In this document: positions 30,218 through 59,967 of the stretch, piece after piece
Layout of the letters: every line of letters begins with the position of its first letter
How positions within the stretch are numbered: position 1 is the first letter of the stretch
Assembly (NCBI GenBank): GCA_947503005.1
Contig: CANNCA010000006.1
Location: 62,001-126,000, forward strand
DNA: 64,000 nucleotides
Reading direction: 5' to 3'
Origin: an uncultured Flavobacteriaceae bacterium
GTDB lineage: Bacteria; Bacteroidota; Bacteroidia; Flavobacteriales; Flavobacteriaceae
Program-made: the position numbers and the translations under genes
Notes under the pieces: generated by a model
Told to the model about the DNA's origin: nothing
Databases searched by the model: none
The model's input: the letters and a program-made list of their open reading frames with translations, nothing else

Positions 30218-30248
30218 TACACATTAACACATTTAAAACACACCCCGA

Positions 30249-31154: not shown

Positions 31155-31174
31155 GAATCATAAAACACATAACC

Positions 31175-41481: not shown

Positions 41482-41543
41482 CTTTTTATTTAATTAGTAC
41501 AATTTTGAAATGTAGAGTTTTTTTAAGAAAAGGTTGAGAAATG

Positions 41544-42050: not shown

Positions 42051-42098
42051 AATAGTTTTCTTTGAATCGTCAAAAATAAACAAATCACGTGCCAAACA

Positions 42099-43753: not shown

Positions 43754-43814
43754 GCTATAACAAAGTGATAGTGACGAACTTTATGTTGAATAATATAGAA
43801 GCATCCAGATAAAA

Positions 43815-44612
43815 CTACTGCTCCGTAATTTCTAAGGAATTAGTATTATTCTTCCGATAAACGATACTTTTCCTTCGAATGAAATCCCATATTTTCAATT
43901 TATCATGCGAATCAACAACGGATTGAAAAGCGGAATCGACCTCGCAGAAATACAGAAGGTCATCAATTTTATTTTCGGGTATTTTTAAATCGATTCTAAA
44001 TATGGAATCAGGATAATACTCTTTCACGCGTTCTGTTCGTGAATATAATTTGTCACGTTCCAAGCGTTTTTTCAACATTTTTGTACGTCCCGTTATTGCA
44101 TTAATTAAAGGGTCAAAACTCATAAAAGGATTGGCCGTAGCGGCAAACAATTCTCTTTCCGCTTTCGAAGGAACTCTAACATACGCATTGGGTAGCCCCA
44201 CTGTTTGTGCAGTCACCACTTGTTCAGTTTTGATTATTTGCAAGTCCTTAAAAATGTCACCTGATAAATTATATGGGGTTACAATTACCTCGTCAAGTAC
44301 GGTCAGTGATTCTTCCAAAGGAATATTCAATGTTTTTTGGGCTAAAACTTCTGCTGTAATAATCAGTTCTTTTTTCTTGTATTGAACTGCAGAAAAAACG
44401 AGGGTATCATTGAGATTGGCTTCAATGGAAAAAAAACCGTCGAGATCAGTAATCGTAGCTCGTTTGGTTGTAGTGTTCAATACATGAGTGGCCGCCACAT
44501 CGCCGTCAACGCTGTAAACTTTTCCTTGAATTTTTTTTGAAAAAAAAGTTTGTGCGCTTGAAAAAGCGGTAAAAGAAACAAGTAGTATGAAAAGTAGCTT
44601 ATTTCTCAGAAT
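43815..44612 (-). CDS. Secreted carboxypeptidase-regulatory-like protein, paralogue 3 (ATT or CTG start)
   Basis: 265 residues if started at ATT (44612-44610) or 264 at CTG (44609-44607). This frame encodes a signal peptide (NKLLFILLVSFTAFSSAQ) and the missing first strands (FFSKKIQGKVYSVDGDV) that the paralogues have; a stop lies directly upstream, and the first GTG (44498) would delete both. The remainder matches the paralogues: HVLNTTTKRATITDLDGFFS, LDEVIVTPYNLSGDIFKDLQ, YPDSIFRIDLKIPENKIDDL. The first codons overlap the 3' end of paralogue 4 by 14 bases, so translation is likely coupled to it, which would help an unusual start codon to be used. Confidence 0.8.
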   Translation of the reverse strand: MLRNKLLFILLVSFTAFSSAQTFFSKKIQGKVYSVDGDVAATHVLNTTTKRATITDLDGFFSIEANLNDTLVFSAVQYKKKELIITAEVLAQKTLNIPLEESLTVLDEVIVTPYNLSGDIFKDLQIIKTEQVVTAQTVGLPNAYVRVPSKAERELFAATANPFMSFDPLINAITGRTKMLKKRLERDKLYSRTERVKEYYPDSIFRIDLKIPENKIDDLLYFCEVDSAFQSVVDSHDKLKIWDFIRRKSIVYRKNNTNSLEITEQ

Positions 44613-45345
44613 CTAGTGATTGAAGGAACGTTTTGCTATGGGTCACCAAAAAGTCGATCAACTGAAATTCATTGTCTTTTCTTAAGAGTGATTGTGCTGG
44701 CATCTGCGTATCGCAATAAAACAGAAAAGCATCTATTTTATCTTGTGGAATTTGTAAGTCGAGTACAAAAAATTGATCATCATAAACCTGTCGAAGTACC
44801 TCACTTACCTTTAACGGTGGTCTTTTGTCTTCCTTTTCTTTGTTTGATTTCAACAAAGCCCTAAAAATATTGGCAAAATTGAGTCCATCTTGCATTCCCT
44901 GTTCTGTTTGCGACAATGCGATATTTTGAACCTCGGTAGAACGATCTATCTCATATTCAAATTCCTTTAATTGTTCGTTTTTCATTTCAATAAAACGTTC
45001 TTGGTCCTCGGGTGTAACAATGACCTCATCCAATTCGGTAATTTTTTCGTTCACCTCGACCACCAGCCGATTGTTTTTTAAGATTGAATCGGTAATCTTA
45101 ACCACCATAAGTTGATAGTTAACTGCCGTAAATACCAATTCGTCATCCTTTTTGACGCGAATAGCAAATTCCCCACGATTATTCGTAATTGTTGCGGTCT
45201 CGTTGGTCGCGTTGATAACGTTCTCATTGGGTACAAGCGTGTTTCGATAAAGCACTTGACCTCTTAATAGTTGACGTTCATCATCTTGGGCATGGCCTAC
45301 AACAATAAAAAGGACGGTAAAAAAGAAGGGTAAAATTAACTTCAT
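44599..45345 (-). CDS. Secreted carboxypeptidase-regulatory-like protein, paralogue 4
   Basis: 248 residues, the most diverged of the four: signal peptide (LPFFFTVLFIVVGHAQ), sandwich with GQVLYRNTLVPNENVINATN, ATITNNRGEFAIRV and DELVFTAVNYQL, then LDEVIVTPEDQERFIEMKNE and a charged C-terminal helix bundle ending LDLQIPQDKIDAFLFY. It is the first gene of the minus-strand group that runs to the M1 peptidase. The promoter is not clear. Confidence 0.85.
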   Translation of the reverse strand: MKLILPFFFTVLFIVVGHAQDDERQLLRGQVLYRNTLVPNENVINATNETATITNNRGEFAIRVKKDDELVFTAVNYQLMVVKITDSILKNNRLVVEVNEKITELDEVIVTPEDQERFIEMKNEQLKEFEYEIDRSTEVQNIALSQTEQGMQDGLNFANIFRALLKSNKEKEDKRPPLKVSEVLRQVYDDQFFVLDLQIPQDKIDAFLFYCDTQMPAQSLLRKDNEFQLIDFLVTHSKTFLQSLDSEK

Positions 45346-45656: not shown

Positions 45657-48600
45657 ATGAAACGATTACTTTTCCTACTGCTTTTCGGTTTTTGTATAGC
45701 TCATTCTTCCAGGGCGCAAGTAAAAATAGGAGACAATCCTCAAACTATTGACGCGGCTTCCGTTTTAGAATTGGAAAGCACCGATAAGGTTTTGGTCATC
45801 ACTCGTGTGACTACGGCCCAAATGAACGCCATCGTACCGTTACAAGGCGCAATGGTCTACAATACCGACTTGCAAAGTGTGCATTACTTTGACGGTGCAC
45901 AATGGGTCAATATTGGAGGAGGAGGAGGAGGCTCAGGTGGTGCTCTGACAGCGGATCCCATTGTTAACGATGTTCCCACAATTGTGATTACCCCAACAGG
46001 GACAAGTGATAACCTTGAAGTTGCGGAAAACAGTATCGGAACCTTACAAATTACAAATGGTGGTGTTAATGGAACAGACGATATTCAGGATAATTCCATC
46101 GGTTCTGGAAAACTTCAAGACCAATCAGTAACCCAAGAAAAGCTATCCGAAAATTCAGTAGGTGCTTTTGCACTGGACAATGACAATATTGGTGTCAGCG
46201 CCTTCAATAATGATATAGGCTACATAACTAGTGCGAATATTGTTAGTGTAGATGCAAATAACGCCTTACAAATAGGAACCGACGAAGGTGCCTTTTTTGA
46301 CGAGACACCGTTGATAAGTGCCATTCAAGATAACACGATCGCAATTAACAACATTGGTATACCTAATATAAATGAGGTACTACAGGAAGGCAATAACGCC
46401 TTTGGGCTTAAAATTGCCGGTCTGGGATCTCCGGTAGATCCGGCTGATGCAACGAACAAAGCATATGTAGATACCAATGACAACCAGAACATAGGCCCCG
46501 TAACTTTTGATGCAGTTACGAATGAGCTTAGTATCGGTATACAAAACGGAAACCCTGGAACAGTAAACCTGGGAGCACTTGCCGGAGGTGGCGGTGGAGC
46601 AACGGTCATCAATTCAACTACCACAGTGACCGTTGCTGGAACCGGTACTACAGGTGACCCTTACGAACTTACTGCTGTTGGTGGTGGAGGTGGCACTACA
46701 GAAGTTGTTGATGGTACACTATTAACTGGCCTTGGAACCGCTGCAAATCCTTTTACCATAGCACCAGGGGCAGCCGACCAGATTTTAAGGACCAATGCAG
46801 CGGGCGATGCGGTAGCTTGGGTGCCTTTACCTACGGGAGCAGCAGCTATTACCGATGCTACCATTGATGGGGACGGAAGTAGTGCTGCAACGGCATTAGG
46901 CCTTGCCGACGATGCGGTCACCATTGACAAGATTGCTCCCGGAGCAGCGGATCAGATTTTAAGGACCAATGCAGCTGGAGATGCTGTAGCATGGGTACCC
47001 TTACCCACAGGAGGAGCGGCAATTACAGATGCCACCATCGACGGTGACGGAAGCAGTGCAGCGACAGCGCTGAGCCTTGCAGATGATGCGGTCACAACGG
47101 TAAAAATACAGGATGCAAATGTGACAGAAGCAAAAATAGCGCCCGGTGGTCCTGATGAGATTCTAAGAACAAATAGTGCAGGAGATGCCGTAGCATGGGT
47201 ACCATTACCCACGGGAGGAGCGGTGTTTACAGACTCTGATACCATAGATGGCGATGGCTCTAGTCTTTTAACTGCACTGACTTTAGCTGATGAGGCGGTA
47301 ACCTTGCCTAAAATAGCCCCGAACGGTGCCACCAATGACGGGGACATTATGAAATGGAACACCGATGTCGATGGCCTTGGAAATGCAGGTTGGGAAGTTG
47401 GTGTCAACGCAGGCCACCTTGGCAACTTTGAAAATAATATCTTTTTTGCTGGACCAGGCGGAGTTCCCATTGATACGGAGGACACCCCCACTGCTGGGGA
47501 CAATGGGGGTCTTATCTGGGACCCATCAAAACGTTTTGGTTCAGGGGCACTATATGTAGGGTACAAGGCAAATGGTAATTCGGGAGGTACAAGTGTATTC
47601 GGAGACCACTCTAAATTGGCAGTTGCTGAGCGATTACCGGGTGATTTCGCATTTCCACTTCAAGTAGTAAATGAATACGGTTTAAGTGGTTTTGGGGCTG
47701 CCGCAGGTATTCTCTTTACCGTGGATGACACTGGCCTTCCAGGTGGAGGCGGCTTAGTATTTGAAAGAGTCGGTGCAGTTGGTCAGGGCGATTTTCATTT
47801 TTTAGCCAGTGCAGCCGGCGTGAGTTCCGTACCTGACGAGAATGATAAAGTACTCACTGTTGAAAATGATGGGGATGTAGTGCTTATGGGCAATCTTGTC
47901 GACAAAAACAATATTGGTGCTACCCCTCCAGCGGTGGGTGCAACCGAAGATGGTTATGTGTTGACAAATACGCCGGGGGGAACGGTTTGGGCCCCTGTCA
48001 GCGGTGGTGGATCCGACGACCAGAACGATACGGAGGTGCCCCTGGCCACGCCCTTCGATTTCGACGGGGACACCACAAACGAAACAACGGTAAGCGAAGC
48101 GCTGTTGGCATTGCAAGGAATTACGGGATCCGACGACCAGAACGACACGGAGGTGCCCTTGGCCACGCCCTTCGATTTCGACGGGGACACCACAAACGAA
48201 ACCACCGTAAGCGAAGCACTGTTGGCATTGCAAGGAATTACGGGATCCGACGACCAGAACGACACGGAGGTGCCCTTGGCCACGCCTTTCGATTTCGACG
48301 GGGACACCACGGACGAAACCACCGTAAGCGAAGCACTACTGGCATTGCAAGGGATTACGGGATCCGACGACCAGAACGATACGGAGGTGCCCCTGGCCAC
48401 GCCCTTCGATTACGACGGCGACACCACAAACGAAACAACGGTAAGCGAAGCACTGTTGGCGTTGCAGGGAATCGCGGGGTCCGACGACCAGAACGATACG
48501 GAGGTGCCCCTGGCCACGCCCTTCGATTTCGACGGGGACACCACGGACGAAACCACCGTAAGCGAAGCGCTGTTGGCGTTGCAGGGAATCGCGGGGTCCG

Positions 48601-49700
48601 ACAACCAGAACGATACGGAGGTGCCCCTGGCCACGCCCTTCGATTTCGACGGCGACACCACGGACGAAACCACCGTAAGCGAAGCGCTGTTGGCATTGGC
48701 TTCCATAAGTGGAGGCGATAATCTCTTTAGTGCAAACGGTCTCATTCTACCCGCCAATAGAACGCACAATCTAAATGGAAATAACATTATTTTAGGTGGT
48801 AGTGCAGGTGGTAGCATTGGTATTGGAGATTTTGGTGGTTCTGGTCCTGCTAGTATAAGAAGTAAATTCGATGTTGATGGCCAGATTACTGCATCAAATG
48901 GTTTCGCTGCAACTGAAGGGACCCAAGGAAATCCAGGGTATGGGTTTTTTACTAACGGCGATACTGATACAGGAATGTTTAGAGCCGGTGAAAATCGTTT
49001 AGCTTTCACCACAAACTCTACTGAGGCAATAGAAATCAACGCATCTGGAAATCTTGGCATTGGCGATGGAAATAATGCTATCAGCGAAAAATTACATGTT
49101 TTTGGCAATATCAGAACCGAAGGCGTAATCAAAACTCAAAATGGCTCAGCAGGAGCTCCAAGCTATACTTTTGAGAACGATTTAGGAACCGGAATGTATT
49201 CGTCAGGTTTTGATGTTTTGAATTTTGCTACCACCGGCACAGAAGCCATGAGAATAGATGCAGCGCAAAGTGTAGGGATTGGCTTGACTGCTCCTCTGGC
49301 AAAATTGCATGTTGCAGGGAATATAAGAGCAGATGGTAGCTTTATTTCAGGCACTACAACATATCCCGATTATGTTTTTCAATACTATTATAATGGTGAA
49401 TCATCTCTCGATAGAAACTATAAACTCGCTCCTTTGAATGAAGTTGAAGACTTCATTAAAGAGAATCATCATCTACCTGGCATCAAGTCAGCCTCGGAAG
49501 TTCAAAATAATAACAATCAATGGAACCTTACAGAAGGTGCGATAAAGAACCTTGAAAAAATAGAAGAATTGTTCTTGCATACAATCGAACAAGAACATAA
49601 AATCAAAAAATTAGAGACAGATAATCAGGCCTTGTCCGATGAGCTCAAGTCTTTACAAAAAGATTTAAAAGAAATTAAAGCGCTCTTACAGAACAATTAA
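45657..49700 (+). CDS. Large secreted fibre protein with phage-tail-fibre-like modules
   Basis: 1347 residues. Signal peptide (LLFLLLFGFCIAHSSRAQ), then an N-terminal module (VKIGDNPQTIDAASVLELES, MVYNTDLQSVHYFDGAQW) shared with the gene at 51025. Next come Gly-rich linkers, three imperfect 58-63-residue repeats (about 369-560), six perfect-length 39-residue repeats (785-1018), and a tail with two tail-fibre-like blocks (GYGFFTNGDTDTGMFRAG, LAKLHVAGNIRADGSF), ending in YPDYVFQYYYNGE, EVEDFIKENHHLPGI and a terminal coiled coil. This is the plan of a trimeric fibre with a C-terminal coiled coil. No T9SS domain is on the protein itself; a CHU_C-domain gene follows after 11 bases. Confidence 0.85.
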   Translation: MKRLLFLLLFGFCIAHSSRAQVKIGDNPQTIDAASVLELESTDKVLVITRVTTAQMNAIVPLQGAMVYNTDLQSVHYFDGAQWVNIGGGGGGSGGALTADPIVNDVPTIVITPTGTSDNLEVAENSIGTLQITNGGVNGTDDIQDNSIGSGKLQDQSVTQEKLSENSVGAFALDNDNIGVSAFNNDIGYITSANIVSVDANNALQIGTDEGAFFDETPLISAIQDNTIAINNIGIPNINEVLQEGNNAFGLKIAGLGSPVDPADATNKAYVDTNDNQNIGPVTFDAVTNELSIGIQNGNPGTVNLGALAGGGGGATVINSTTTVTVAGTGTTGDPYELTAVGGGGGTTEVVDGTLLTGLGTAANPFTIAPGAADQILRTNAAGDAVAWVPLPTGAAAITDATIDGDGSSAATALGLADDAVTIDKIAPGAADQILRTNAAGDAVAWVPLPTGGAAITDATIDGDGSSAATALSLADDAVTTVKIQDANVTEAKIAPGGPDEILRTNSAGDAVAWVPLPTGGAVFTDSDTIDGDGSSLLTALTLADEAVTLPKIAPNGATNDGDIMKWNTDVDGLGNAGWEVGVNAGHLGNFENNIFFAGPGGVPIDTEDTPTAGDNGGLIWDPSKRFGSGALYVGYKANGNSGGTSVFGDHSKLAVAERLPGDFAFPLQVVNEYGLSGFGAAAGILFTVDDTGLPGGGGLVFERVGAVGQGDFHFLASAAGVSSVPDENDKVLTVENDGDVVLMGNLVDKNNIGATPPAVGATEDGYVLTNTPGGTVWAPVSGGGSDDQNDTEVPLATPFDFDGDTTNETTVSEALLALQGITGSDDQNDTEVPLATPFDFDGDTTNETTVSEALLALQGITGSDDQNDTEVPLATPFDFDGDTTDETTVSEALLALQGITGSDDQNDTEVPLATPFDYDGDTTNETTVSEALLALQGIAGSDDQNDTEVPLATPFDFDGDTTDETTVSEALLALQGIAGSDNQNDTEVPLATPFDFDGDTTDETTVSEALLALASISGGDNLFSANGLILPANRTHNLNGNNIILGGSAGGSIGIGDFGGSGPASIRSKFDVDGQITASNGFAATEGTQGNPGYGFFTNGDTDTGMFRAGENRLAFTTNSTEAIEINASGNLGIGDGNNAISEKLHVFGNIRTEGVIKTQNGSAGAPSYTFENDLGTGMYSSGFDVLNFATTGTEAMRIDAAQSVGIGLTAPLAKLHVAGNIRADGSFISGTTTYPDYVFQYYYNGESSLDRNYKLAPLNEVEDFIKENHHLPGIKSASEVQNNNNQWNLTEGAIKNLEKIEELFLHTIEQEHKIKKLETDNQALSDELKSLQKDLKEIKALLQNN
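46761..47330 (+). repeat. Three imperfect 58-63-codon repeats inside the fibre gene
   Basis: Units beginning APG/APGG-x-D-x-I-LRTN start at 46761, 46935 and 47139. The first two are 174 bp apart and nearly identical in protein (DQILRTNAAGDAVAWVPLPT, ATIDGDGSSAATAL); the third is more diverged with a 30-base insertion before it. Each ends in an ADDAVT/ADEAVT-x-x-KI helix-like segment. Confidence 0.8.
48009..48710 (+). repeat. Six tandem 117-bp units encoding a 39-residue acidic repeat
   Basis: Units start at 48009, 48126, 48243, 48360, 48477 and 48594, exactly 117 bp apart. Each encodes GSDDQNDTEVPLATPF, then D-F-D-G-D-T-T, then NETTVSEALLALQG with N/D, F/Y and T/A variants. The DFDGDTT loop resembles a calcium-binding acidic loop. 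The DNA is clearly richer in G and C than its flanks and unusually uniform. Confidence 0.96.
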
Positions 49701-49711
49701 ACCCCATCATT

Positions 49712-50863
49712 GTGATAAAAAAAGTTGGTTACATTCTATTATTTGTGGGATCATGGGCGACAGCCCAATCCGCCCTGTACAATTCGGGCAACCTGCAAAT
49801 TCACCCTGAGGGGCAATTGGGCTTGCATATCAATCTAATCAATGATGGTATTTTAGATGATAATCTTGGCTTGGCCGGTTTTTATGGAGATTTGCCTTTA
49901 ACCGTTTCAGGAGCGTTTGCACCCACCTTCTTTAATTTGGAAATTGCGAATCCTGATCATGTATTCTTAACCACAGGTATCAACACCTTGAATACAACCA
50001 ACTTTATCTTGGGTAATTTTGAAACGCCCAGAAATGCTACGGACAATTATTTGAATTTTGTCACGAATGCCTTTTCGACCAATACAGGTGATATTTCAAA
50101 AGTCGATGGGTATGCTGCGGTAACGAATCAACAAAATTTTACCTTTCCCGTAGGGGACGCGGTACAACTTCGCCCATTGGTACTCAACTCAGATGCGGTC
50201 AACAGCTTTGCCAAATGCGCCTACTTTTTTGAAGACCCGAATAGTCCTTCCACTTTTGCAACCTCTTTTAGTACAGGAGTCAAAGCGGAATCACTTGGTC
50301 CTGTCAGTACTGTAGAATTTTGGCGTTTGGAGGGCAGTGTTCCGTCAACGGTTCAGTTAAGCTGGAACGAAAGAAGCGCTATCAGTTTACTAACAGATGA
50401 CCCGGCGACTATAACCGTAGTAGGTTGGAGCAAAGTGACCAATCAATGGGAATCGTTAGTGGGTGCGCCCGCAATGGGTGATGCTACCCAAGGCTTCGTT
50501 GCCTCCCAAAGTTTTATACCTGATGACTATGAGGTGTTGACCTTGGCAAGTTCTTTAGGCGAGCCACTCGAATTTATTTCAGTCGATAATTTTCTGGTAA
50601 CCCCAAATGGTGATGGCAATAATGATTCCTTTATCATTCCTGAATTGTCACAGTCACCCAATAACTCCCTTCAAATCTTTGACCGCTTCGGTTTAAAAGT
50701 TTTCGAAATGGAAAACTATACCGATGAATTTCGAGGTTTTGCCAATACGGGCACCATACTCATGGGAAAAGAGAAGGGGCTTCCCATAGGCGTATACTTC
50801 TTTATTGTTGAAATGAGAGATTTGAATCTTGACTTTCAAGGATTTCTCTATTTAGCCAGATAA
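49712..50863 (+). CDS. Type-B T9SS sorting-domain protein, fibre-locus member A
   Basis: 383 residues with a GTG start at 49712. Signal peptide (ILLFVGSWATAQ), an N-terminal beta-rich domain (LYNSGNLQIHPEGQLGLHIN, LGLAGFYGDLPLTVSGAF), a middle domain (FTFPVGDAVQLRPLVL, AYFFEDPNSPSTF, EFWRLEG) and a C-terminal gliding-motility sorting domain (VTPNGDGNNDSFIIPE, IFDRFGLKVFEMENY, GFLYLAR). It is full-length paralogous to the protein at 56061. It should be exported by T9SS and stay on the surface; it lies 11 bases behind the large fibre gene, so it may be the anchor or export escort for that fibre. Confidence 0.88.
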   Translation: MIKKVGYILLFVGSWATAQSALYNSGNLQIHPEGQLGLHINLINDGILDDNLGLAGFYGDLPLTVSGAFAPTFFNLEIANPDHVFLTTGINTLNTTNFILGNFETPRNATDNYLNFVTNAFSTNTGDISKVDGYAAVTNQQNFTFPVGDAVQLRPLVLNSDAVNSFAKCAYFFEDPNSPSTFATSFSTGVKAESLGPVSTVEFWRLEGSVPSTVQLSWNERSAISLLTDDPATITVVGWSKVTNQWESLVGAPAMGDATQGFVASQSFIPDDYEVLTLASSLGEPLEFISVDNFLVTPNGDGNNDSFIIPELSQSPNNSLQIFDRFGLKVFEMENYTDEFRGFANTGTILMGKEKGLPIGVYFFIVEMRDLNLDFQGFLYLAR

Positions 50864-50865
50864 AG

Positions 50866-50892
50866 CCTTTGCCGTTCGTCGGCAAAAGGTAT
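50866..50892 (+). terminator. Hairpin after fibre-locus member A, probable terminator
   Basis: CCTTTGCCG (50866-50874) pairs with CGGCAAAAGG (50880-50889) with one bulged A and a 5-base loop; only a broken T-rich tail follows. It begins 3 bases after the stop, and separates the first sub-cluster of the fibre locus from the second. Confidence 0.55.
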
Positions 50893-51024
50893 TTATTTCA
50901 ATTTGTAATTATTTTCCTACAACAATTTTTATAATTGTTACATACTTTTCTTACAGTTACACAACAATTTCTGTGTAATTGAATCATTCCGTTCTAATTT
51001 CGCCATCACCATTGACCTATAACT

Positions 51025-51948
51025 ATGCGAAAATTATTATGGATACTACTTTTTCTTTGTGCCAATACAATCTGGTCACAGGTGAAAGTTGGTGATAATA
51101 TAAATACGATAGACGCCGCTTCCATTCTAGAACTTGAAAGTTTGGATAAGGTTTTTGTGCTAACGAGAATGAACGCTGCCCAAATGAATGTCATTACTCC
51201 CTTAAATGGAGCATTGGTGTACAACACTGATGAAAGATGTCTGTTCGTTTTTGAAGGAACTATTTGGAAAAGCCTATGTGATTCAGAAATTTCTGTCAGC
51301 ACATCCACCACTCCTCCTATAAATCCCGTTCCGGGTGATATTTGGTTCAACGCAACCGATAACACTGTAAATATATGGGATGGAGCAACTTGGACACCCA
51401 TACCTAAAAGTACATGGACGGGAAATGGAGCACCTAGCGTTGCAACGGTACCAACTCCTATTGCAGGAGACATTTATGTCGATAATACTACCGGAAATGT
51501 TTTTACCTATAACGGTACCGATTGGATAGATCAAACCATTACTGCATCCAACGGAGTCCTTAAGACCCCTAGCAACAACATTGAACTGGGAGGAGCCCTA
51601 ACCCAAGCGACGGAAATTACTACCGATGCTTCGAACACTTTGGCAATAAATGGATTAGAAGAAGTTATCGACAATACAAATTCGATAGTTACTATAGAAG
51701 AAACAACCGGTGTATTACGGAAAGCTCCAATTTCCTCTTTTCTGCAACAGGAAGAAGTAGTAATTATAGCAAATGACGCACAAACTCAATTTAACCCGCC
51801 ACTATCGATTACCAGTTCGAAAAAACTAGACGTATATCGGAATGGGGTAAAACTGGGTTTTACAGTAATTGACGACAGCACCATAGAACTGGAAACCCCA
51901 GTGGCATGCTATCAAAATGATGAAATCAGGATTGTACAATTTTATTAA
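51025..51948 (+). CDS. Secreted fibre-like protein with N-terminal fibre module and C-terminal RNG-type domain
   Basis: 307 residues. Signal peptide (LLWILLFLCANTIWSQ), then the module VKVGDNINTIDAASILELES ... MNAAQMNVITPLNGALVYNT shared with the 45657 fibre, then two short W-rich units: PVPGDIWFNATDNTVNIWDG and TPIAGDIYVDNTTGNVFTYN. The C-terminal domain ends QFNPPLSITSSKKLDVYRNG with later ELETPVACYQNDEIRIVQFY, a pattern familiar from phage tail proteins (short surface domain with (V/F)-x-N/R-G). It has no sorting domain of its own. Confidence 0.8.
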   Translation: MRKLLWILLFLCANTIWSQVKVGDNINTIDAASILELESLDKVFVLTRMNAAQMNVITPLNGALVYNTDERCLFVFEGTIWKSLCDSEISVSTSTTPPINPVPGDIWFNATDNTVNIWDGATWTPIPKSTWTGNGAPSVATVPTPIAGDIYVDNTTGNVFTYNGTDWIDQTITASNGVLKTPSNNIELGGALTQATEITTDASNTLAINGLEEVIDNTNSIVTIEETTGVLRKAPISSFLQQEEVVIIANDAQTQFNPPLSITSSKKLDVYRNGVKLGFTVIDDSTIELETPVACYQNDEIRIVQFY

Positions 51949-51997
51949 ATAGTAGTAAACAATAGAAACAGTAATAATTAAATCAAACCCCTTTATC

Positions 51998-52693
51998 ATG
52001 AGAATCTTAAATTATCAAAAACTAGTAAAATCGGGCATCTTTGCCATGGCCATGATGGCCTTTGGTATTGCAAGCGCCCAACAGACCTCGGGAGACACCG
52101 CCAAAGAAGCAGATATTCAGCCCGGAACCACTAATCTGGGCGGATCTGTCAGAGTAATTGACAATAAGGGTACCATTAAATACCTGCAATCAAAAAATGG
52201 TATCACGATGTTATCGAATACGACAGCTGATGTTACAACAACCACTTGGCAATTAGGTGGAACACTTACCGACGATACGTTTATCGATGCAAACGGTAAT
52301 GTATTTGGTCTTGATGGCATCGAATTGGTAACTACTGAAGTTGCTTCCACAGATGCTACCACTGAATCAGACCATGGAACCGGAACAGGTTATACCCTAT
52401 TAGTAAGGGATGAAGCTACCGGCGCCACTAAAAAACTTTTGGCGACGGATTTGATGCAAAGCGGACAGGAAAGCTTTACGGCCGCTGCGGCTCAAGTTGC
52501 TTATCCGTTAACAGGAAGTCCTGTATTACCAACTTTCAGCCAAGTCTGGGTCTATAGAAACGGCGCAAAACTTATTGCGAACGTTGACTATACCATTGCA
52601 GGCTCTACAGTCACTTTGGTGCCAAATGCGGTAGTTCCAAACGATTGGGCCGTATACGCCAATGACGTAATCGAAGTACAATACGTCAAGTAA
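51998..52693 (+). CDS. Secreted protein with C-terminal RNG-type tail domain
   Basis: 231 residues. A signal peptide (IFAMAMMAFGIASAQQ) is followed by VRVIDNKGTIKYLQSKNG and a threonine/aspartate-rich middle. The C-terminal 75 residues (FSQVWVYRNGAKLIANVDYT ... VYANDVIEVQYVK) align by eye with the C-terminus of the preceding protein (LDVYRNGVKLGFTVIDDSTI ... NDEIRIVQFY). This domain type recurs in tail-fibre proteins. There are 49 bases to the previous gene and 168 to the next. Confidence 0.78.
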   Translation: MRILNYQKLVKSGIFAMAMMAFGIASAQQTSGDTAKEADIQPGTTNLGGSVRVIDNKGTIKYLQSKNGITMLSNTTADVTTTTWQLGGTLTDDTFIDANGNVFGLDGIELVTTEVASTDATTESDHGTGTGYTLLVRDEATGATKKLLATDLMQSGQESFTAAAAQVAYPLTGSPVLPTFSQVWVYRNGAKLIANVDYTIAGSTVTLVPNAVVPNDWAVYANDVIEVQYVK

Positions 52694-52730
52694 AAAACGA
52701 AAAACTATAAACGGCGAAACTTTATTTGAA

Positions 52731-52767
52731 GGAATATATTTTGGCATTTAAAACCAAAATATATTCC
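52731..52767. promoter_or_regulatory. Perfect 14-bp AT-rich inverted repeat, function unclear
   Basis: GGAATATATTTTGG (52731-52744) and CCAAAATATATTCC (52754-52767) flank a 9-base loop, 38 bases after the stop at 52693 and 95 bases before the next start. It could be a terminator without a T run, an RNA-processing hairpin that adjusts the expression of adjacent fibre genes, or a protein-binding palindrome. Confidence 0.55.
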
Positions 52768-52861
52768 AGATTTTAAAAGGGTTCATAGAAACCAAGCGTA
52801 TTCTTTAATATCCATGTTCTAGGCTTTTGAAGCCTATGGAACGATGAGATAATGTAAAAAA

Positions 52862-53878
52862 ATGTCCAAACCCGAACATATCCAGATTTCAAAAAAATTT
52901 CTAATTGCTTTATTTGCCTTGTTTTTACAAATAGGTGCGAAAGCTCAGGAGGAAACCGTTATTGACAATAAGGGTAATATCGTCACCGTTCGAAATAACG
53001 TGGTGACCATAAGCACTTCTGCACCAATAACACCGGTAGAAGGAGATGTGTGGTTTGACGACACGGATCCTAGTAATCGTATAACATCAGTTTGGGATGG
53101 TACAGCTTGGCAAGAAATCATTCATGAAGGAACCAGTGGATCGCTTTTCTTTGCGGCCTCAGATGGTAGACCTACCGAAGATAATGCCCAGTTATTCTGG
53201 GACGACGCGAATAATCGCTTGGGAATTGGAACCAATTCTCCTAATAATAAATTAGAAGTAACAGGAGCGATTCGCTCAGAAGGGGTATTGAACTCCGACG
53301 GTACGGTCAATGAACCTTCCTATCGATTTAATAGTGATTCAAATACGGGCATGTTCAGACCTGCTGCAGATGAAATAGGATTTAGCGTGGGAGGAATAGA
53401 AGCCATGAATATTGATGAAACTTCAAGTAGCACTACGGTTACGATAAATGAGACATTAGAACTAGATGGTCAAGTATTGGATGAAACCAATTCGGCCGGA
53501 ACAGCTGGACAAGTTTTAACGGCCACTGCTACAGGAACGGCTTGGGCACATCAGCCCATTAAAGCTTTTGGGAAAATTTCATCGGCTGGAGGAGTCGTTA
53601 GAGCCACTACCGGGGTAACGGCTGCAAGAACATCGACCGGTCGATATAGAGTAACATTAACAGGCATAGTAACTGACGGCGACTATATCATTCAATTAAC
53701 ACAGCCAGGCAGAGGAGGTACAGGCCTAATTGGAGGAGGAGGAAATGATGACCCAGGAATTTCATATGCGAATCAAGATGCAACAGGTTTTGATGTCATC
53801 ATCGGAGATAATGACAATGGAGGTACGGATCGCGCACGTTTCAACTCAGAATTTATGTTTACAGTTTTAGATTTATAA
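52862..53878 (+). CDS. Secreted fibre-like protein with tail-fibre 'TGMF' block and C-terminal sandwich
   Basis: 338 residues. Signal peptide (FLIALFALFLQIGAKAQ), then the VIDNKGNIVTVRNNVV element resembling the previous protein and a W-rich collar unit PVEGDVWFDDTDPSNRITSV. The middle contains RLGIGTNSPNNKLEVTGAIR and SYRFNSDSNTGMFRPAADEI, both matching blocks in the large fibre at 45657. The C-terminal 110 residues (AFGKISSAGGVVRATTGVTA ... GRYRVTLTGIVTDGDYI) look like a receptor-binding-type beta domain of phage tail fibres. The gene is followed by the next one after 6 bases. Confidence 0.8.
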   Translation: MSKPEHIQISKKFLIALFALFLQIGAKAQEETVIDNKGNIVTVRNNVVTISTSAPITPVEGDVWFDDTDPSNRITSVWDGTAWQEIIHEGTSGSLFFAASDGRPTEDNAQLFWDDANNRLGIGTNSPNNKLEVTGAIRSEGVLNSDGTVNEPSYRFNSDSNTGMFRPAADEIGFSVGGIEAMNIDETSSSTTVTINETLELDGQVLDETNSAGTAGQVLTATATGTAWAHQPIKAFGKISSAGGVVRATTGVTAARTSTGRYRVTLTGIVTDGDYIIQLTQPGRGGTGLIGGGGNDDPGISYANQDATGFDVIIGDNDNGGTDRARFNSEFMFTVLDL

Positions 53879-53884
53879 AGACTC

Positions 53885-54955
53885 ATGAAACAATTAGCGT
53901 TCATCACATTTCTAATACTTCCCATAGTATGCTCAGCACAGATTGACGGCAACCTTTTATTGGGTTTGACACACGTCACAACAGCAGAAACGGCAACCAT
54001 AACCAATTTGTATGAAGGCTCGATTATGTACAATAGTACCCTAAAAAAAATAATGCTATTCAATGGAAGTGGTTGGGTGGAGGCTGCAGACTTGCCTCCC
54101 GATTTATTGGATGGAGATGATGACACAACCTATTCGGCAGGTTCAGGGCTTCTTTTGAACGGCACAACATTTTCAGTGAACAACGCTACTATTGCTCCAA
54201 CTTGGAGCAATATAACAAACATTCCTATTAATCTAGACCTTAGTGATACTAACGAAATTCAAGTAATATCTAAAACTGGAAATAGCATTTCATTGAGCTC
54301 GGGAGGAGGTTCTATTACGGAAACCGAAACCTCTATGGCCCAAAATAACACCTCAGGTATTATCACTTACACCAGAGAATCTGGAGGTATTTCTACTGCA
54401 AACATTATTTCTACAGATGCCAACAATTCAATATCGGTCGGATCCGATGGAGGAGCATTTCTCGAGCAAAATATCACTACAACAACGGTACAGGTAGATC
54501 AATCATACGTTTGGGCCGGTGTGGTAAATGACACTGACATTCATTCGAACGGAACTTTAACTGTCAATCAAAATCGGGCTGATACAGGGTGGTCTTTTGC
54601 CGGCCCGAGTACAATAAGCTATTCCGGTTCCCCTGACCATATCAAAATTGACCTTATGGCCGTTGCAAATAATACCGGAAGTCATTACGCCGCACCTCAC
54701 ATTAAAGTATTTAGAAATGGACAAGAGATTGGTGAGGGTGGTGCCTACCACCTTGATAACAGTAATTCATACTCTGGTAGAATGACAACAAATCTGAACA
54801 TGGTAGATGCGAACCCCGGAACCAATCCGGTATATTCATTTACCACCTTGGAAGATGATAATAGAACTATGAACAACCCTACAATAACGAGCCTTTCACC
54901 AATCTCATTGGTTGCTGTAGAAAAAATAGATGTAGTAGTGTCAATATCAAATTGA
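53885..54955 (+). CDS. Secreted fibre-like protein with C1q/TNF-like C-terminal head
   Basis: 356 residues. Signal peptide (FLILPIVCSAQ), the module IDGNLLLGLTHVTTAETATI ... YEGSIMYNSTLKKIMLFNGS shared with the next gene, a linker with SNITNIPINLDLSDTNEIQV, and a C-terminal beta-rich head (QSYVWAGVVNDTDIHSNGTL ... SPDHIKIDLMAVANNTGSHY ... HIKVFRNGQEIGEGG). The head pattern resembles trimeric C1q/TNF-like jelly rolls found on bacterial fibres; the assignment is by eye. Gaps to neighbours are 6 bases on each side, so it is inside one operon. Confidence 0.78.
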   Translation: MKQLAFITFLILPIVCSAQIDGNLLLGLTHVTTAETATITNLYEGSIMYNSTLKKIMLFNGSGWVEAADLPPDLLDGDDDTTYSAGSGLLLNGTTFSVNNATIAPTWSNITNIPINLDLSDTNEIQVISKTGNSISLSSGGGSITETETSMAQNNTSGIITYTRESGGISTANIISTDANNSISVGSDGGAFLEQNITTTTVQVDQSYVWAGVVNDTDIHSNGTLTVNQNRADTGWSFAGPSTISYSGSPDHIKIDLMAVANNTGSHYAAPHIKVFRNGQEIGEGGAYHLDNSNSYSGRMTTNLNMVDANPGTNPVYSFTTLEDDNRTMNNPTITSLSPISLVAVEKIDVVVSISN

Positions 54956-54961
54956 AAATTT

Positions 54962-56059
54962 ATGAAGCGATTACTTTTGTTGATTTTCATTTTATTCAAA
55001 TATGCTATGGTAAACGCCCAGATTGATGGCAATCTGTTACTTGGCTTAACAATGGTTACAGATTCAGAAGTAAGTACTATTCAAAACCCTCCTATCGGTT
55101 CGGTCTTCTATAATACAACCCAACAGGCCATATTTAGTTATAGCGGTACTAATTGGCAAGAAGTACTTACTCCAGGAACGGCTTGGCGAAAAGACGGAAA
55201 TGATAATGTAAACCCCACTGGAGATTTTCTCGGAACGACGAATGATATCAAAATGGAAATACGTTCGAACAATTTACCCATGCTTCAGTTTGGTCGCAGG
55301 CAAACACTAGGTCTAACACAAAACTTTCCAGATTACACAAATAACGATCAGCCTATGGTATACGTAAATGGTGATACAAATACGGCCGCATTGCAATTTG
55401 CAGCATCAGGAGCAAGTTTCTATAAACCGATTTTCTTCACCACGACCAATGGTAGTTTTAGATTAAAGGGAAGCGCTGGTGGTACTGACCTCTTTGAATT
55501 GGGCTCTGGGGGTCCTGCCAACGATGGAAGGCTTGAGTTCATTATCGGGGATGACGGCGCAGAACCTATAATTTTTAAGAGATACGATTATCGCCTTGGT
55601 CAATTTCACACCGAACTGTTTCGTGTGCAAGGAAGTGATAATACCCAAAATGCCAAACCGCGATTTGGAATCAATATCAATCCGCAACAGGTTGCTGTTG
55701 ACACGGGTTACGATGATTCGTCAGCTGGGTTCAATATTGCCAACTCAACATTTCAAGTCAATGGTTCAATTTCTAAATCGATACTGATTACCACTGGTAG
55801 CCTAACCCTTACCGAAGATCATCATACCATTATTTTAGCTGCAAATAATCACTCCATAACGTTACCCGCTGCAAATTCTTGTACAGGTAGAATCTACGTA
55901 ATCAAAAACCCACTACCCAATACAGGAGATAATAGTAACGACGTGTCGATTAGCAGCTTTATCGACCATAGGGGAAACCCACGTACCTCTGTAAGAAGAG
56001 AGCGCGTTTATTGGTTACAAAGTGATGGTACAAACTGGCATCTCATAAGCAGAATTTAA
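54962..56059 (+). CDS. Secreted fibre-like protein with tail-fibre C-terminal 'TLPAA' domain
   Basis: 365 residues. Signal peptide ending VNAQ, then IDGNLLLGLTMVTDSEVSTI ... SVFYNTTQQAIFSYSGTNWQ, nearly the same module as in the gene before. The C-terminal 75 residues, DHHTIILAANNHSITLPAAN ... CTGRIYVIKNPLPNTG ... RVYWLQSDGTNWHLISRI, match a domain I know from phage and prophage tail fibres that packs as a trimeric beta structure. One base separates its stop from the next start. Confidence 0.8.
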   Translation: MKRLLLLIFILFKYAMVNAQIDGNLLLGLTMVTDSEVSTIQNPPIGSVFYNTTQQAIFSYSGTNWQEVLTPGTAWRKDGNDNVNPTGDFLGTTNDIKMEIRSNNLPMLQFGRRQTLGLTQNFPDYTNNDQPMVYVNGDTNTAALQFAASGASFYKPIFFTTTNGSFRLKGSAGGTDLFELGSGGPANDGRLEFIIGDDGAEPIIFKRYDYRLGQFHTELFRVQGSDNTQNAKPRFGININPQQVAVDTGYDDSSAGFNIANSTFQVNGSISKSILITTGSLTLTEDHHTIILAANNHSITLPAANSCTGRIYVIKNPLPNTGDNSNDVSISSFIDHRGNPRTSVRRERVYWLQSDGTNWHLISRI

Positions 56060-56060
56060 G

Positions 56061-57206
56061 ATGAAAAAACTTAGCCTTTTACTATTTATTTTCATATTTC
56101 ATCTTAAAGGTTGGAGCCAAGAGGCTCTTCACAATTTTGGAAACCTAAAAATACATGATAGCGGTTCTATTGGCTTTCATCATAATCTCATCAACAATGG
56201 CTCATTTGATGAAAATCTAGGGCTAGCTGGTTTTTTCAATTCGACGGATTTAAATATTTCCGGAGCATTTCGGCCTATTTTTAATGATATGGAAGTCATG
56301 GTTGAGGAAAACCTTTTCTTAGAAGTAGGTGTGGGCGTAACAAGGCATTTTAATTTTATCGATGGTACAATTCTCACTCCGCGTACGCTGACGGATATTA
56401 ATACAGATTTCATAACTGAAGCCTATTATTCGGGAGAAAATCAAGAAGCCAAAGTGAATGGTTATGCGAAAATGACCGAGAAGCAGAAATTCAGATTTCC
56501 CATTGGAGATGCTAATAGAATTCGGCCACTGCTTCTAGAGACCGAAAGCGATACCATATCAGCTAAAAGTGCTTATTTTTTTGAAAACCCCAATACCCCC
56601 TCAACTTTTGGGGAAAGTTTTGATACCACTAGTTTTGGTGAAAATGTGCGTTCGGTAAGTAACTCGGAATTCTGGCATTTAGAAGGTATAACTACCGGGC
56701 GGGTTGAACTTCTTTGGGATGACAGAAGCGAAGTTAAAAACTTTATCGAAACCATTGAAGATCTGACCATCGTAGGCTGGCATGCACAGGAAAAAGAATG
56801 GCATGACCTTGGTGTTGCGGCCCGAAAAGGGGATTTGAATTTCGGTAGAATGGTTTCCGACTATTTCAATATATCGGATTTTCAAATCATAACTTTCGGA
56901 AGTCGTAACGGTAATAATAATGTACTTTTAACTAACTATCTGTTGACACTAAACAATGATGGCATCAATGACTATTTGGTTCTCAATGGCATTGAAAAAT
57001 CTCCTAATAACCTTCTTAAAATATTCAACAGATGGGGTCGGGCTGTCTATATAGAGGAAAACTACCGGAATGATTTTAGTGGAAAGAGCAACACAGGAGT
57101 GGTTTTTCGAAAAGGCAAGATTCTTCCTGTCGGACTCTACTTTTATGTTATAGAATTGAAAGACCTTGACAAAGTACATCAGGGATATCTCTATATCAAC
57201 GAGTAA
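56061..57206 (+). CDS. Type-B T9SS sorting-domain protein, fibre-locus member B
   Basis: 381 residues, full-length paralogue of member A (49712): signal peptide (LLFIFIFHLKGWSQ), LHNFGNLKIHDSGSIGFHHN, LGLAGFFNSTDLNISGAF, a middle domain with FRFPIGDANRIRPLLLETES, AYFFENPNTPSTF and EFWHLEG, and a C-terminal domain with LTLNNDGINDYLVLNG, IFNRWGRAVYIEENY and GYLYINE. The sorting motif reads NNDGIND rather than PNGDGNND, a slight deviation. It is the last gene of the second sub-cluster, starting directly behind the tail-like gene, and is probably the surface anchor or T9SS escort. Confidence 0.88.
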   Translation: MKKLSLLLFIFIFHLKGWSQEALHNFGNLKIHDSGSIGFHHNLINNGSFDENLGLAGFFNSTDLNISGAFRPIFNDMEVMVEENLFLEVGVGVTRHFNFIDGTILTPRTLTDINTDFITEAYYSGENQEAKVNGYAKMTEKQKFRFPIGDANRIRPLLLETESDTISAKSAYFFENPNTPSTFGESFDTTSFGENVRSVSNSEFWHLEGITTGRVELLWDDRSEVKNFIETIEDLTIVGWHAQEKEWHDLGVAARKGDLNFGRMVSDYFNISDFQIITFGSRNGNNNVLLTNYLLTLNNDGINDYLVLNGIEKSPNNLLKIFNRWGRAVYIEENYRNDFSGKSNTGVVFRKGKILPVGLYFYVIELKDLDKVHQGYLYINE

Positions 57207-57329: not shown

Positions 57330-58070
57330 ATGAAACGTAGATCATTCATCAAGAAAGCGAGTACTTCTAGTTTAGCCCTAACATTGGTTCCCAGTCTTTC
57401 CTTCTCCAAAGAGAAAGATTTTGAATACTCCATTTTGGAGCTAATGGGAAAAACCGATATCGAACTGGTAGGCAAAGGAATCAATCTTAGACCTTTGGCT
57501 CACGACGCTTTTGTAGAAATGAAAAAAGCCGCCTATAGCGATGGTATCGAATTGAAAATAGTTTCAAGTTATCGTAACTTCAGTAGACAAGAGGCTATTT
57601 GGGAAAGGAAGTATGCACGCTATACCGAAGAAGATGGGATGGAGCCACTACAAGCCATTGATAAAATTATTGAATACTCCACTGTTCCAGGTACCAGTCG
57701 TCACCACTGGGGTACCGATGTTGATATAGTTGACGGATACCGAAAAGTAGAAGGCGATGTTCTCGTTCCCTCAAAATTTGAATCTGGTGGCCCATATGAA
57801 GATTTCAAAAAATGGATGGATGAAAATGCGAACACATTCGATTTTTATCTTGTTTATACAGATGACCCTAAAAGAAAAGGGTTTAAATATGAACCGTGGC
57901 ACTATAGTTTTGCCCCGATATCGGTACCAATGCTGACTGAGTTTCGAAGAAAAAATATCATGCAGCTTTTACAAAAAGAAGATTTTTTGGGTTGTGAACA
58001 CTTCACCAACGGGTTTATCAAGAATTATGTTCAGAACAATATTTTAGACATCAACAAAGAACTTTTGTAA
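57330..58070 (+). CDS. Tat-exported M15-family peptidase (D-Ala-D-Ala carboxypeptidase-like)
   Basis: 246 residues. The N-terminus KRRSFIKKAS followed by a mild hydrophobic core is a twin-arginine signal. The M15B zinc site is complete: SxHxxGxxxD as SRHHWGTDVD (His125, Asp132) and WHYSF with His191. Such enzymes trim peptidoglycan stem peptides or cross-links in the periplasm. The presence of tatA in the window fits the export route. It is a single gene between the fibre locus and the M48 gene. Confidence 0.9.
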   Translation: MKRRSFIKKASTSSLALTLVPSLSFSKEKDFEYSILELMGKTDIELVGKGINLRPLAHDAFVEMKKAAYSDGIELKIVSSYRNFSRQEAIWERKYARYTEEDGMEPLQAIDKIIEYSTVPGTSRHHWGTDVDIVDGYRKVEGDVLVPSKFESGGPYEDFKKWMDENANTFDFYLVYTDDPKRKGFKYEPWHYSFAPISVPMLTEFRRKNIMQLLQKEDFLGCEHFTNGFIKNYVQNNILDINKELL

Positions 58071-58130
58071 TATTTCTTATCATTTCTGCTTCTTTTCGTA
58101 TCTTCCATCGGTAACTAAACACTACATGAG

Positions 58131-58901
58131 ATGCGAAGAAATAGTTGGAAAATTCGAATTTTTATCGGCTTGGCCATTGTAGCTTTCGCCTTTATCCGAA
58201 AATGTAATAATACCGAGGAAAATCCGTATACCGGAAGGTCACAGCATATTACTATGAATGCGGAGCAGGAGATTGCGATTGGTCTTCAGAGTGCACCACA
58301 GATGGCACAACAACATGGTGGACTCTACCCAGATGAAAGATTACAATCCTTCGTCGATGCCGTGGGCAACAAACTTGTTCAAAACAGCATCGCCAGAGAA
58401 ACTCCTTATAAATACGATTTTCATTTACTAGCGGATGACAAAACCATCAACGCATTTGCATTACCAGGTGGTCAGTGCTTTATTACCTATGCCCTATTCT
58501 CTCAATTAAACGAAGCTCAACTTGCAGGAGTTTTAGGCCATGAAATTGGTCACGTAATTGGCAGACATTCCGCTGAAAGAATAGCCTCTAGTGAATTTTG
58601 GAGAACCGCTACTATGGGGGCGACAGTCGGGGCAGGAGATATTGGCAATGTAGTAGGCGGAATTGGGCAGAACACATTACTTAAAAACGGAAGGGGAGAT
58701 GAACTTGAAAGCGATGACCTAGGCGTACTGTTTATGATTCAATCAGGTTATGACCCAAATGAAATGATAAGGGTCATGGAAATTCTTAAGGCTGCTGCTG
58801 GACCAAATCGTGTCCCAGAATTTCAAAGCACCCATCCGGATCCAGAAAATCGCATTGAAAAAATCAGAGAGGCTATTGCCAAATATCGAGGTCAACAATA
58901 G
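58131..58901 (+). CDS. M48-family zinc metalloprotease
   Basis: 256 residues. After an N-terminal membrane helix (IRIFIGLAIVAFAFIRKC) comes the BepA/YfgC-like catalytic region: HEIGH at 137-141 (VLGHEIGHVIGRHSAERIA), the third ligand in GDELESDDLGVLFM, and THPDPENRIEKIR at the C-terminus. Family members degrade or help fold outer-membrane proteins in the periplasm. The cysteine after the helix is not a proper lipobox, so it is more likely a membrane-anchored form. An intrinsic terminator follows. Confidence 0.9.
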   Translation: MRRNSWKIRIFIGLAIVAFAFIRKCNNTEENPYTGRSQHITMNAEQEIAIGLQSAPQMAQQHGGLYPDERLQSFVDAVGNKLVQNSIARETPYKYDFHLLADDKTINAFALPGGQCFITYALFSQLNEAQLAGVLGHEIGHVIGRHSAERIASSEFWRTATMGATVGAGDIGNVVGGIGQNTLLKNGRGDELESDDLGVLFMIQSGYDPNEMIRVMEILKAAAGPNRVPEFQSTHPDPENRIEKIREAIAKYRGQQ

Positions 58902-58915
58902 TGTTAATTAAGCTC

Positions 58916-58941
58916 AAAAGCTTGTGAATCAGGCTTTTTTT
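58916..58941 (+). terminator. Intrinsic terminator of the M48 gene
   Basis: AAAAGCTTG (58916-58924) pairs with CAGGCTTTT (58930-58938), nine pairs including one T-G, with a 5-base loop and a continuing T run. It begins 15 bases after the stop. Confidence 0.7.
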
Positions 58942-59023
58942 CGTAATTTTATAATTCCCGATATCTTTTTTCGCCCTAGATTTAACCCCTTATAGCTTTC
59001 AATTCACCATTAAATAGAACTAT

Positions 59024-59191
59024 ATGGGAACGCTACTACATTTCAAAAATCTATACATTCAGGCATTTGAGAACTGTAAGCCTGAGATATTGGTTATTCT
59101 ATTAAAAGTATATTCGGTGTTTTGTGCTCTTATGATTTTTATGGCAATTTATGCCTTATCTGATAGGGCTTTGAACGGTTGGGATTTTTAA
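59024..59191 (+). CDS. DUF6747-family small membrane protein (55 residues)
   Basis: A 55-residue ORF starting MGTLLHFKNLYIQAFENCKP and continuing EILVILLKVYSVFCALMIFM, with one membrane helix and a short tail ending in LNGWDF. I recognise the pattern as DUF6747, a microprotein family of flavobacteria with unknown function. It has its own surroundings: terminators on both sides (58916 and 59248) and no other gene in the 426-base gap, so it is a monocistronic unit. Confidence 0.75.
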   Translation: MGTLLHFKNLYIQAFENCKPEILVILLKVYSVFCALMIFMAIYALSDRALNGWDF

Positions 59192-59247
59192 AAATTACCT
59201 TTTTTGCTCTTATACTTGAACACTATATGGAGTGAAAATTCAATATG

Positions 59248-59282
59248 AAAAACCCATCAGCCAGTCGGCTGATGGGTTTTTT
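59248..59282. terminator. Strong intrinsic terminator after the DUF6747 gene
   Basis: AAAAACCCATCAGCC (59248-59262) pairs perfectly with GGCTGATGGGTTTTT (59267-59281) around an AGTC loop. Symmetrical A/T runs make it usable by both the DUF6747 gene and the convergent ankyrin gene. Confidence 0.9.
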
Positions 59283-59327
59283 GATACTTGTGTTTATGAC
59301 AAGTGGCTTGATTGATGAATTTTAAAT

Positions 59328-59717: not shown

Positions 59718-59967
59718 GATGAATGATTTAATACCTGCCTAAGACCGGTAGATTGATGAATAGATTTTGCTTATATAAATATAGACTGTCCTGATAGTGT
59801 TTTGTTTCACGATTAACAGTTAAATAACTAAAGTTTAACAGCCTCCGGAATTTTAACTTAAAATATTTAACAGATTGAAGTTGTTTTATGGTATACTAAA
59901 AAAGACCTCTCTATTTCTAGTGTTACTTGACAATTCATGCTACTTTTGAAGTCGTAAAATTATCGAA

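Follow-up and report, generated by a model that had tools for sequence, protein, structure and literature searches.

The window analysed here is a 64,000-nucleotide stretch, part of contig C6 in the 4.58-Mb genome (G000) of an uncultured marine-type flavobacterium of the family Flavobacteriaceae. At positions 45657-57206 it carries eight consecutive plus-strand genes, and all eight open reading frames (ORFs) are found where a preliminary description of the sequence had placed them. The locus consists of two copies of one module, in which secreted fibre genes without a sorting domain are followed by a CHU_C protein of about 380 amino acids (aa). The fibres are named F1 to F6 (genes 1 and 3-7), and the CHU_C proteins are named adaptor A (gene 2) and adaptor B (gene 8). 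With a probability of roughly 0.6, the locus is a two-part surface-fibre module, whose fibres lack a C-terminal sorting domain (CTD) of the type IX secretion system (T9SS) and are displayed via a type-B adaptor. The genes and their internal features are the following:

45657-49700, plus strand: F1, fibre, 1347 aa, with signal sequence, FN domain at the N-terminus, repeats, stalk domains (TGMF/NVGIG) and the C-terminal coiled-coil domain FC1
45711-45926, plus strand: FN of F1, the N-terminal domain common to the fibres and their putative docking domain
48009-48698, plus strand: tandem repeat within F1, unit of 117 bp, 5.9 copies, 93% matches
49242-49697, plus strand: FC1, the C-terminal domain of F1
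49712-50863, plus strand: adaptor A, 383 aa, a beta-rich N-terminal domain and a type-B CTD (CHU_C)
51025-51948, plus strand: F2, fibre, 307 aa, FN domain with the conserved Cys pair kept
51998-52693, plus strand: F3, secreted protein, 231 aa; at 88% in the relative L031, the best conserved non-adaptor gene of the cassette there
52862-53878, plus strand: F4, fibre, 338 aa, stalk domain (TGMF, LGIGT..KLEV)
53885-54955, plus strand: F5, fibre, 356 aa, FN-like domain (E 8.3e-5)
54962-56059, plus strand: F6, fibre, 365 aa, FN-like domain (E 7.6e-6) and FC6-type C-terminus (TLPAA..IYVIK..W)
56061-57206, plus strand: adaptor B, 381 aa, paralogue of adaptor A, type-B CTD

Both sub-clusters are closed by a CHU_C domain, as the preliminary description had it: PF13585 scores 80.0 bits on adaptor A and 87.9 bits on adaptor B (cut-off 27), and TIGR04131 gives 39.4 bits on A and 33.0 bits on B, the latter just below its cut-off of 35. 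Searches with Pfam and NCBIfam find no T9SS sorting domain in the six other proteins. The two CHU_C proteins are indeed full-length paralogues, at 42% over 365 residues, and a Sec-like signal sequence, likewise claimed for every gene, is judged by eye to be present in 8 of 8. In the AlphaFold2 model of adaptor A (mean pLDDT 88.7), built from 58 sequences comprising 56 of the 90 available from named loci and the window's two, the CTD (residues 286-383) aligns with the T9SS CTDs of PorZ (Z 7.8), NucA (Z 7.6) and PorU (Z 6.9), at Z scores similar to those reached by unrelated rows. For the N-terminal domain, VIA yields only weak rows, beta-helix-like (TMEM2, Z 6.0) and GAIN-like (Z 5.7), and the model finds no match at E 0.001 or better in a Foldseek search against PDB and viral models. 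A profile of this domain that excludes the CTD (A1; 27 invariant columns in 23 sequences, two divergent members of the 25 collected being omitted) matches 87 of 299 Flavobacteriaceae genomes at E <= 1e-10, 66 of them strongly (best E < 1e-50) and 21 weakly. Across the phylum it matches 23 of 296 genomes, with all strong matches inside Flavobacteriaceae.

The interpretation is carried by the pairing of this adaptor family with fibre genes. The stretches read contain 160 non-redundant adaptors, divided into 138 core and 22 distant members. A same-strand ORF lies directly upstream of 137 of the 138 core adaptors, at a gap of 40 bp or less (overlaps counted) in 133. In the exception, L250, an opposite-strand ORF lies between at a 60-aa threshold, and at 90 aa the next ORF is a same-strand fibre gene of 960 aa. 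Of these 137 upstream ORFs, 124 contain one or more fibre domains. Because the seeds of the fibre profiles came from the window and their iteration used the same adaptor set, their specificity matters: they match 178 of the 220 ORFs in runs that precede a core adaptor, compared with 35 of the remaining 927 ORFs in the same stretches. The majority of these 35, by our own reading, are found immediately downstream of an adaptor in a stretch that stops short of the next one. In the window's genome FN occurs at five places, four of which are F1, F2, F5 and F6, and no upstream neighbour of the other CHU_C genes, where readable, matches a fibre profile. A crude signal-sequence script agrees for all eight proteins of the locus and is positive for 99 of 109 complete upstream ORFs and for 136 of the 138 adaptors; it carries little weight, because 60 of 121 cytoplasmic control genes are flagged too.

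Elsewhere on the chromosome, amid different neighbours, the F2-F3-F4-adaptor unit is found again in L112 and L128 (Allomuricauda, Flagellimonas) as well as in L235 and L252; L038 and L250 carry related forms of it. This recurrence provides the best evidence that fibres and adaptor form one functional unit. At the site itself, the locus is flanked on the left (39181-45345) by CarboxypepD-type genes and an M1 peptidase, and on the right (57330-61485) by a VanY-type carboxypeptidase, an M48 peptidase and a gene read as gpmI. The search for the same gene order in other flavobacteria, suggested at the outset, shows these flanks recurring, with sub-cluster A (the large fibre and adaptor A) usually present. 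The layout of two sub-clusters, each closed by a CHU_C protein, stands for the window; in relatives the second sub-cluster is optional, varies in the number and kind of its fibres among the loci listed, and is found elsewhere without the first. Named carriers, taken from the 78 loci kept out of 175 confirmed relatives, include at least Maribacter, Zobellia, Kriegella, Muriicola, Eudoraea, Ulvibacterium, Euzebyella, Cellulophaga and Flagellimonas.

Two sites look like scars left when sub-cluster B was lost: L069:11297-12010, an in-frame remnant running from FN to CTD, and L111:2338-3094, with decayed pieces. The former was considered as an FN-CTD fusion and is not counted, since the start of the CTD is missing and the arrangement looks like a deletion scar, with similar decay in L111. 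An FN match on a giant CHU_C protein (L294, E 1.8e-5) failed in a larger search. In L173, the ORF that precedes the CHU_C-PorP pair contains repeats that look fibre-like by eye, and the gene before adaptor B at L036:6813-7709 and L037:13979-14926 resembles a glycan-related domain (in L037 ArabFuran-catal, E 3.6e-5, below the cut-off). The 117-bp repeats in F1, together with contigs of several relatives that end within or right beside fibre genes, indicate that fibre length is probably variable and often misassembled. A Pfam match of Mso1_Sec1_bdg to F1 (residues 880-895) falls inside these repeats and is taken as an artefact.

The resemblance to phage tail fibres, on which the preliminary description was built, holds for parts of the proteins and is local and uneven by PHROG. 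F1 matches a tail-fibre family (E 2e-14); F2 matches a head-tail adaptor family (E 1.4e-5) besides unnamed families, the best of them at E 2.6e-10; F4 weakly matches unnamed families, a virion-structural family (E 9.6e-5) and a tail-fibre family (E 0.0015); and F6 matches an unnamed family (E 1.7e-4), with no match at E 0.1 or better for F3 and F5. This likeness exceeds chance, because solved mosaic adhesive trimer (MAT) fibres are matched by the stalk profiles and different genera keep the same gene order. Profile A6 of the stalk (27 sequences) matches the MAT fibre Bd2133 with E 6.8e-14 over about 35 residues, and four further chains with E 8.1e-5 to 0.039. Among these four are 8OL4, 8OML and 8ON4, which are MAT structures according to the consulted portion of PMC10769870. 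The profile of FC1 (A3, 27 sequences) reaches MAT fibres via the same short stalk motif and not via its own C-terminal part. At the sequence level, the stalks of F1 and F4 and the trimeric beta-prism stalks of MAT fibres, which bear a capping-loop motif, have in common the short motif GIG..P..KL.V. The solved proteins that resemble the fibres are Bdellovibrio MAT adhesive fibres, a correction to the phage-tail-fibre reading.

Searches along the lines proposed for trimeric fibre folds yield the match of the stalk profile to MAT fibres; the F2 model has a pLDDT of 52 and is unusable, and F4 has no PDB match. The poor F2 model leaves FN without a usable structure, and the FN profile finds no PDB match better than E 0.39. 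In Bdellovibrio, MAT fibres have a conserved beta-rich N-terminal domain of about 130 aa. The Cys pair of FN is nearly invariant among relatives (30 sequences) and is kept in F2, being missing in F1 of the window, L068 and L069. FC1 occupies the S74 position of F1 and matches no named domain beyond coiled coils; no S74 domain is found in the six fibres by Pfam and NCBIfam at E <= 1. The RNG-type domain of the preliminary description is unsupported, the 'RNG' end of F2 and F3 having found no relatives among the upstream neighbours.

The distant adaptors, 400-436 aa long in 19 of 22 cases, are directly followed by PorP/SprF in 21 of 22, and then by an OmpA/PorE-like gene in 16 of 22. This order links the adaptor family to the known static anchor, whose characterised form in the part of PMC9143113 used here is the PG1035-PorP-PorE complex. 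Pfam searches of the upstream partners of nine distant adaptors return collagen (L188, L192 and L193), a YadA head (L193), a phage tail collar (L191), CUB or lectin/Ig-type domains (L194 and L200), doubtful repeat matches (L189, which carries FC1) and no domain for L186 and L190. Collagen, phage tail collar and YadA head are trimeric motifs. Directly or almost directly before several distant adaptors lie large proteins that are not fibres and whose ends share short motifs, ITNP(M/H)... or RHGKYF....QPMEFG (L190, L194, L196, L200 and L203; L186 and L187); these motifs may be C-terminal tags for docking to the adaptor.

What is read from sequence comprises the adaptor family with its CTD, its almost invariable adjacency to fibre genes, a cassette that recurs, and the PorP/PorE operons in which distant homologues lie. 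These features frame the following proposal. The fibres, with FN at the N-terminus, trimeric stalks of MAT/tail-fibre type and exchangeable C-terminal ends, would enter the periplasm by Sec, as would the adaptor of about 380 aa. By analogy with established type-B biology, the T9SS translocon would export the adaptor through its type-B CTD, and a PorP/SprF-type barrel would hold it at the cell surface, most likely a static, 'PRFF'-type barrel that acts together with a PorE-like anchor to peptidoglycan and is encoded elsewhere in the genome. The fibres would dock on the adaptor N-terminal domain, probably through FN. On the simplest proposal, the CTD-less fibres would cross the outer membrane through SprA together with the adaptor, and once displayed they may act as adhesins for algal or other surfaces. 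The chromosomal T9SS-linked fibre system suggested in the preliminary description, with CHU_C proteins as constant partners of untagged fibres, is supported by the comparative genomics; the anchoring or export of fibres by these proteins is retained as a proposal. A wider version can be put forward tentatively: T9SS may export cargo in trans, untagged trimeric fibres assembling on the adaptor in the periplasm and passing SprA as a complex, and the adaptor may be a universal surface socket for exchangeable phage-tail-like fibres, a general display route in Bacteroidota.

Several observations weigh against the two-part module. No fibre domain is found in 13 of the 137 upstream ORFs, four of those being cut by the stretch end; a stand-alone FN-domain gene of 469 aa (L287:8863-10272) lies among glycosyltransferase-like neighbours (by eye) with no adaptor nearby, and a stalk-type fibre-like gene of 858 aa (in L288) stands away from any adaptor. 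Among the distant adaptors, only 4 of 21 upstream ORFs match fibre profiles, and several partners are large Ig/CUB/lectin-like proteins. The poor confidence of the F2 model belongs on the same side, as does the result that a same-strand PorP is among the next two genes in 0 of 138 core adaptors (one lies on the opposite strand; 29 reach the stretch end within two genes), so that any carrier would be encoded elsewhere. Co-variation of FN with the adaptor gave a partial r of 0.71 in a first run over 46 loci, in which sub-cluster types could be mixed. For sub-cluster A only, it falls to 0.40 (53 loci) or 0.30 (51 loci, outliers L244 and L249 dropped), and the divergent CarboxypepD gene next to F1 reaches 0.52 and 0.63 with FN, given M1 alone; these two results also tell against the module. 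In the 18 genomes with both adaptors, FN co-varies at 0.36 with its own adaptor versus 0.19 with the other. The FN-adaptor co-variation is unspecific once paralogue mixing is removed, and it is not counted as support.

These data bear on two other explanations. Adaptor and fibres might be separate adhesins, co-transcribed for the same niche, with the fibres leaving by another route or staying periplasmic. The lone FN gene of L287 and the unspecific co-variation fit such an arrangement, and the fibre-adaptor interaction is itself deduced; however, the adjacency in 137 of 138 cases, with tight gaps, for both paralogues and at several chromosomal sites, makes it unlikely. Phage origin, as a prophage or tailocin remnant, could be argued from the PHROG matches on four of the eight proteins, three of them to a named tail, virion or connector family, and from the flanking VanY-type peptidase, which touches a tape-measure PHROG (E 1.6e-6). 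Against this, the fibres have signal sequences and a CHU_C partner alongside, the chromosomal neighbours are the same across genera, and the ten flanking proteins scanned contain no named head, packaging or lysis family. Such a remnant, which the preliminary description had named as the case that could overturn it, finds no support and is extremely improbable.

A further alternative concerns the carrier. Type-B substrates usually, though not obligatorily, have their cognate PorP/SprF gene adjacent; the window's adaptors, unlike their distant relatives, have none beside them. The window's genome has 14 PorP matches, one of them broken, and two of ten PorP tails examined end in CxC: one beside a giant CHU_C protein (L179/L292), a pair on contig C1 (L292) that we take for SprB/SprF, and one orphan (L176). 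The latter feature reads as follows:

G000:C1:937346-938335 (L176:5197-6339): orphan PorP/SprF whose C-tail bears CxC; the stretch read contains no neighbouring CHU_C gene

This orphan is a possible counterpart of the F. johnsoniae orphan carrier, and adaptors A and B might use it, the fibres being hauled along the gliding track. The idea has precedents in the portions of the two reports drawn on: one orphan carrier serves three orphan type-B substrates in F. johnsoniae, whose CTDs send substrates to the gliding machinery or to static sites (PMC12618676), and the SprF CxC motif binds GldK (PMC12635249). Nevertheless, the giant partner of the CxC carrier has a CTD that is distant from those of both adaptors. 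In a comparison of 18 of the genome's 22 CHU_C CTDs, A and B share 43% with each other, and 26 and 32%, respectively, with the SprB-like giant; the nearest other CTD, in L174 (43 and 46%), lies beside a PRFF-type PorP and OmpA. In a long-branched tree, the CxC clade likewise excludes the PorPs of 17 distant adaptors. Judged by eye, the CTD ends of further orphan CHU_C proteins in this genome (L289-L291) look like that of the SprB-like giant, making these proteins likelier clients of the CxC orphan. Co-occurrence of the orphan carrier is uninformative, because it is matched at E <= 1e-40 in 260 of 299 Flavobacteriaceae genomes. Track-borne fibres are accordingly improbable, and the CTD likeness and the PorP tree favour a static PRFF-type PorP acting in trans as the most likely carrier of A and B.

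Two other arrangements touch on these systems. At L288:9359-12436, the fibre-like gene adjoins a secreted protein of 159 aa. The end of this protein looks by eye like a T9SS tag of type A, and the two may represent the fibre pairing in a type-A form. At L178:3592-8079, just before the SprB-like giant, a CHU_C protein of 759 aa is followed by a PorP-like protein of 731 aa with a long extension, and this pair may correspond to SprC/SprD. SprC and SprD are encoded directly upstream of sprB-sprF, whereas the window lies on C6 and the presumed SprB/SprF pair on C1 (L292).

The two-part surface-fibre module can be set beside several known systems. With the static type-B anchor (P. gingivalis PG1035-PorP-PorE; F. 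johnsoniae Fjoh_3952-3951-3950) it shares the type-B CTD, and the distant adaptors lie in adaptor-PorP-OmpA/PorE operons; the CTD protein here, in contrast, is small and constantly paired with CTD-less fibres, and the core family has no adjoining carrier gene. The absence of a neighbouring carrier gene is also a trait of the F. johnsoniae orphan type-B substrates, and no F. johnsoniae fibre-adaptor locus was identified here. The Aureispira grappling-hook protein GhpA (PDB 9flp) has a related CTD (E 1e-10, GhpA residues 5819-5895), but is one giant protein with its own CTD rather than adaptor and fibre. Phage tail fibres and S74 chaperone proteins show local sequence likeness, whereas the fibres here are secreted, chromosomal and unlinked to virion genes in what was examined. 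The Bdellovibrio MAT fibres, as far as covered by the consulted portion of PMC10769870, are alike in signal sequence, short stalk motif and varied C-terminal ends; the present fibres differ in their Bacteroidota host, their own FN domain, the adjoining T9SS adaptor and the lack of S74 by Pfam in the window proteins.

In the wider window, about 12 kb before the locus, 23006-33121 encodes a CHU_C protein of 2403 aa, a PorP/SprF (PF11751) and a protein whose TPR, PD40, CarboxypepD and OmpA domains match the description of PorE; by its gene content this reads as a complete type-B adhesin operon. Next to F1, 42099-45345 contains four divergent paralogous genes, with CarboxypepD_reg confirmed by Pfam in the three scanned. 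No invertible promoter is apparent around F1: the arms of the longer inverted repeats (19-30 nt) lie 1.6-4.8 kb from each other and agree at 74-83%, and the shorter repeats are chance-like. The motif TANNTTTG, which we take to be a promoter motif, occurs 80 times in the window versus 70.7 expected, a count equalled in 13 of 100 shuffles, and is not clearly commoner than chance.

In conclusion, the module joins two known kinds of component, type-B anchoring and MAT/tail-fibre proteins, in a conserved, T9SS-linked form, and among the matches listed in the open-licence literature no paper deals with fibre-CHU_C pairs. What defines a T9SS substrate is the C-terminal tag that it carries itself; if untagged fibres do share a constant tagged adaptor, the range of what T9SS can display would be wider, and many 'tail fiber' proteins in Bacteroidota genomes would become interpretable. 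The MAT N-terminal domain presumably binds a surface element whose identity is left open in the portion of PMC10769870 consulted. The adaptor offers a candidate answer, from another phylum, to the question of which surface element holds such fibres, and the two-part arrangement may show how they are displayed.

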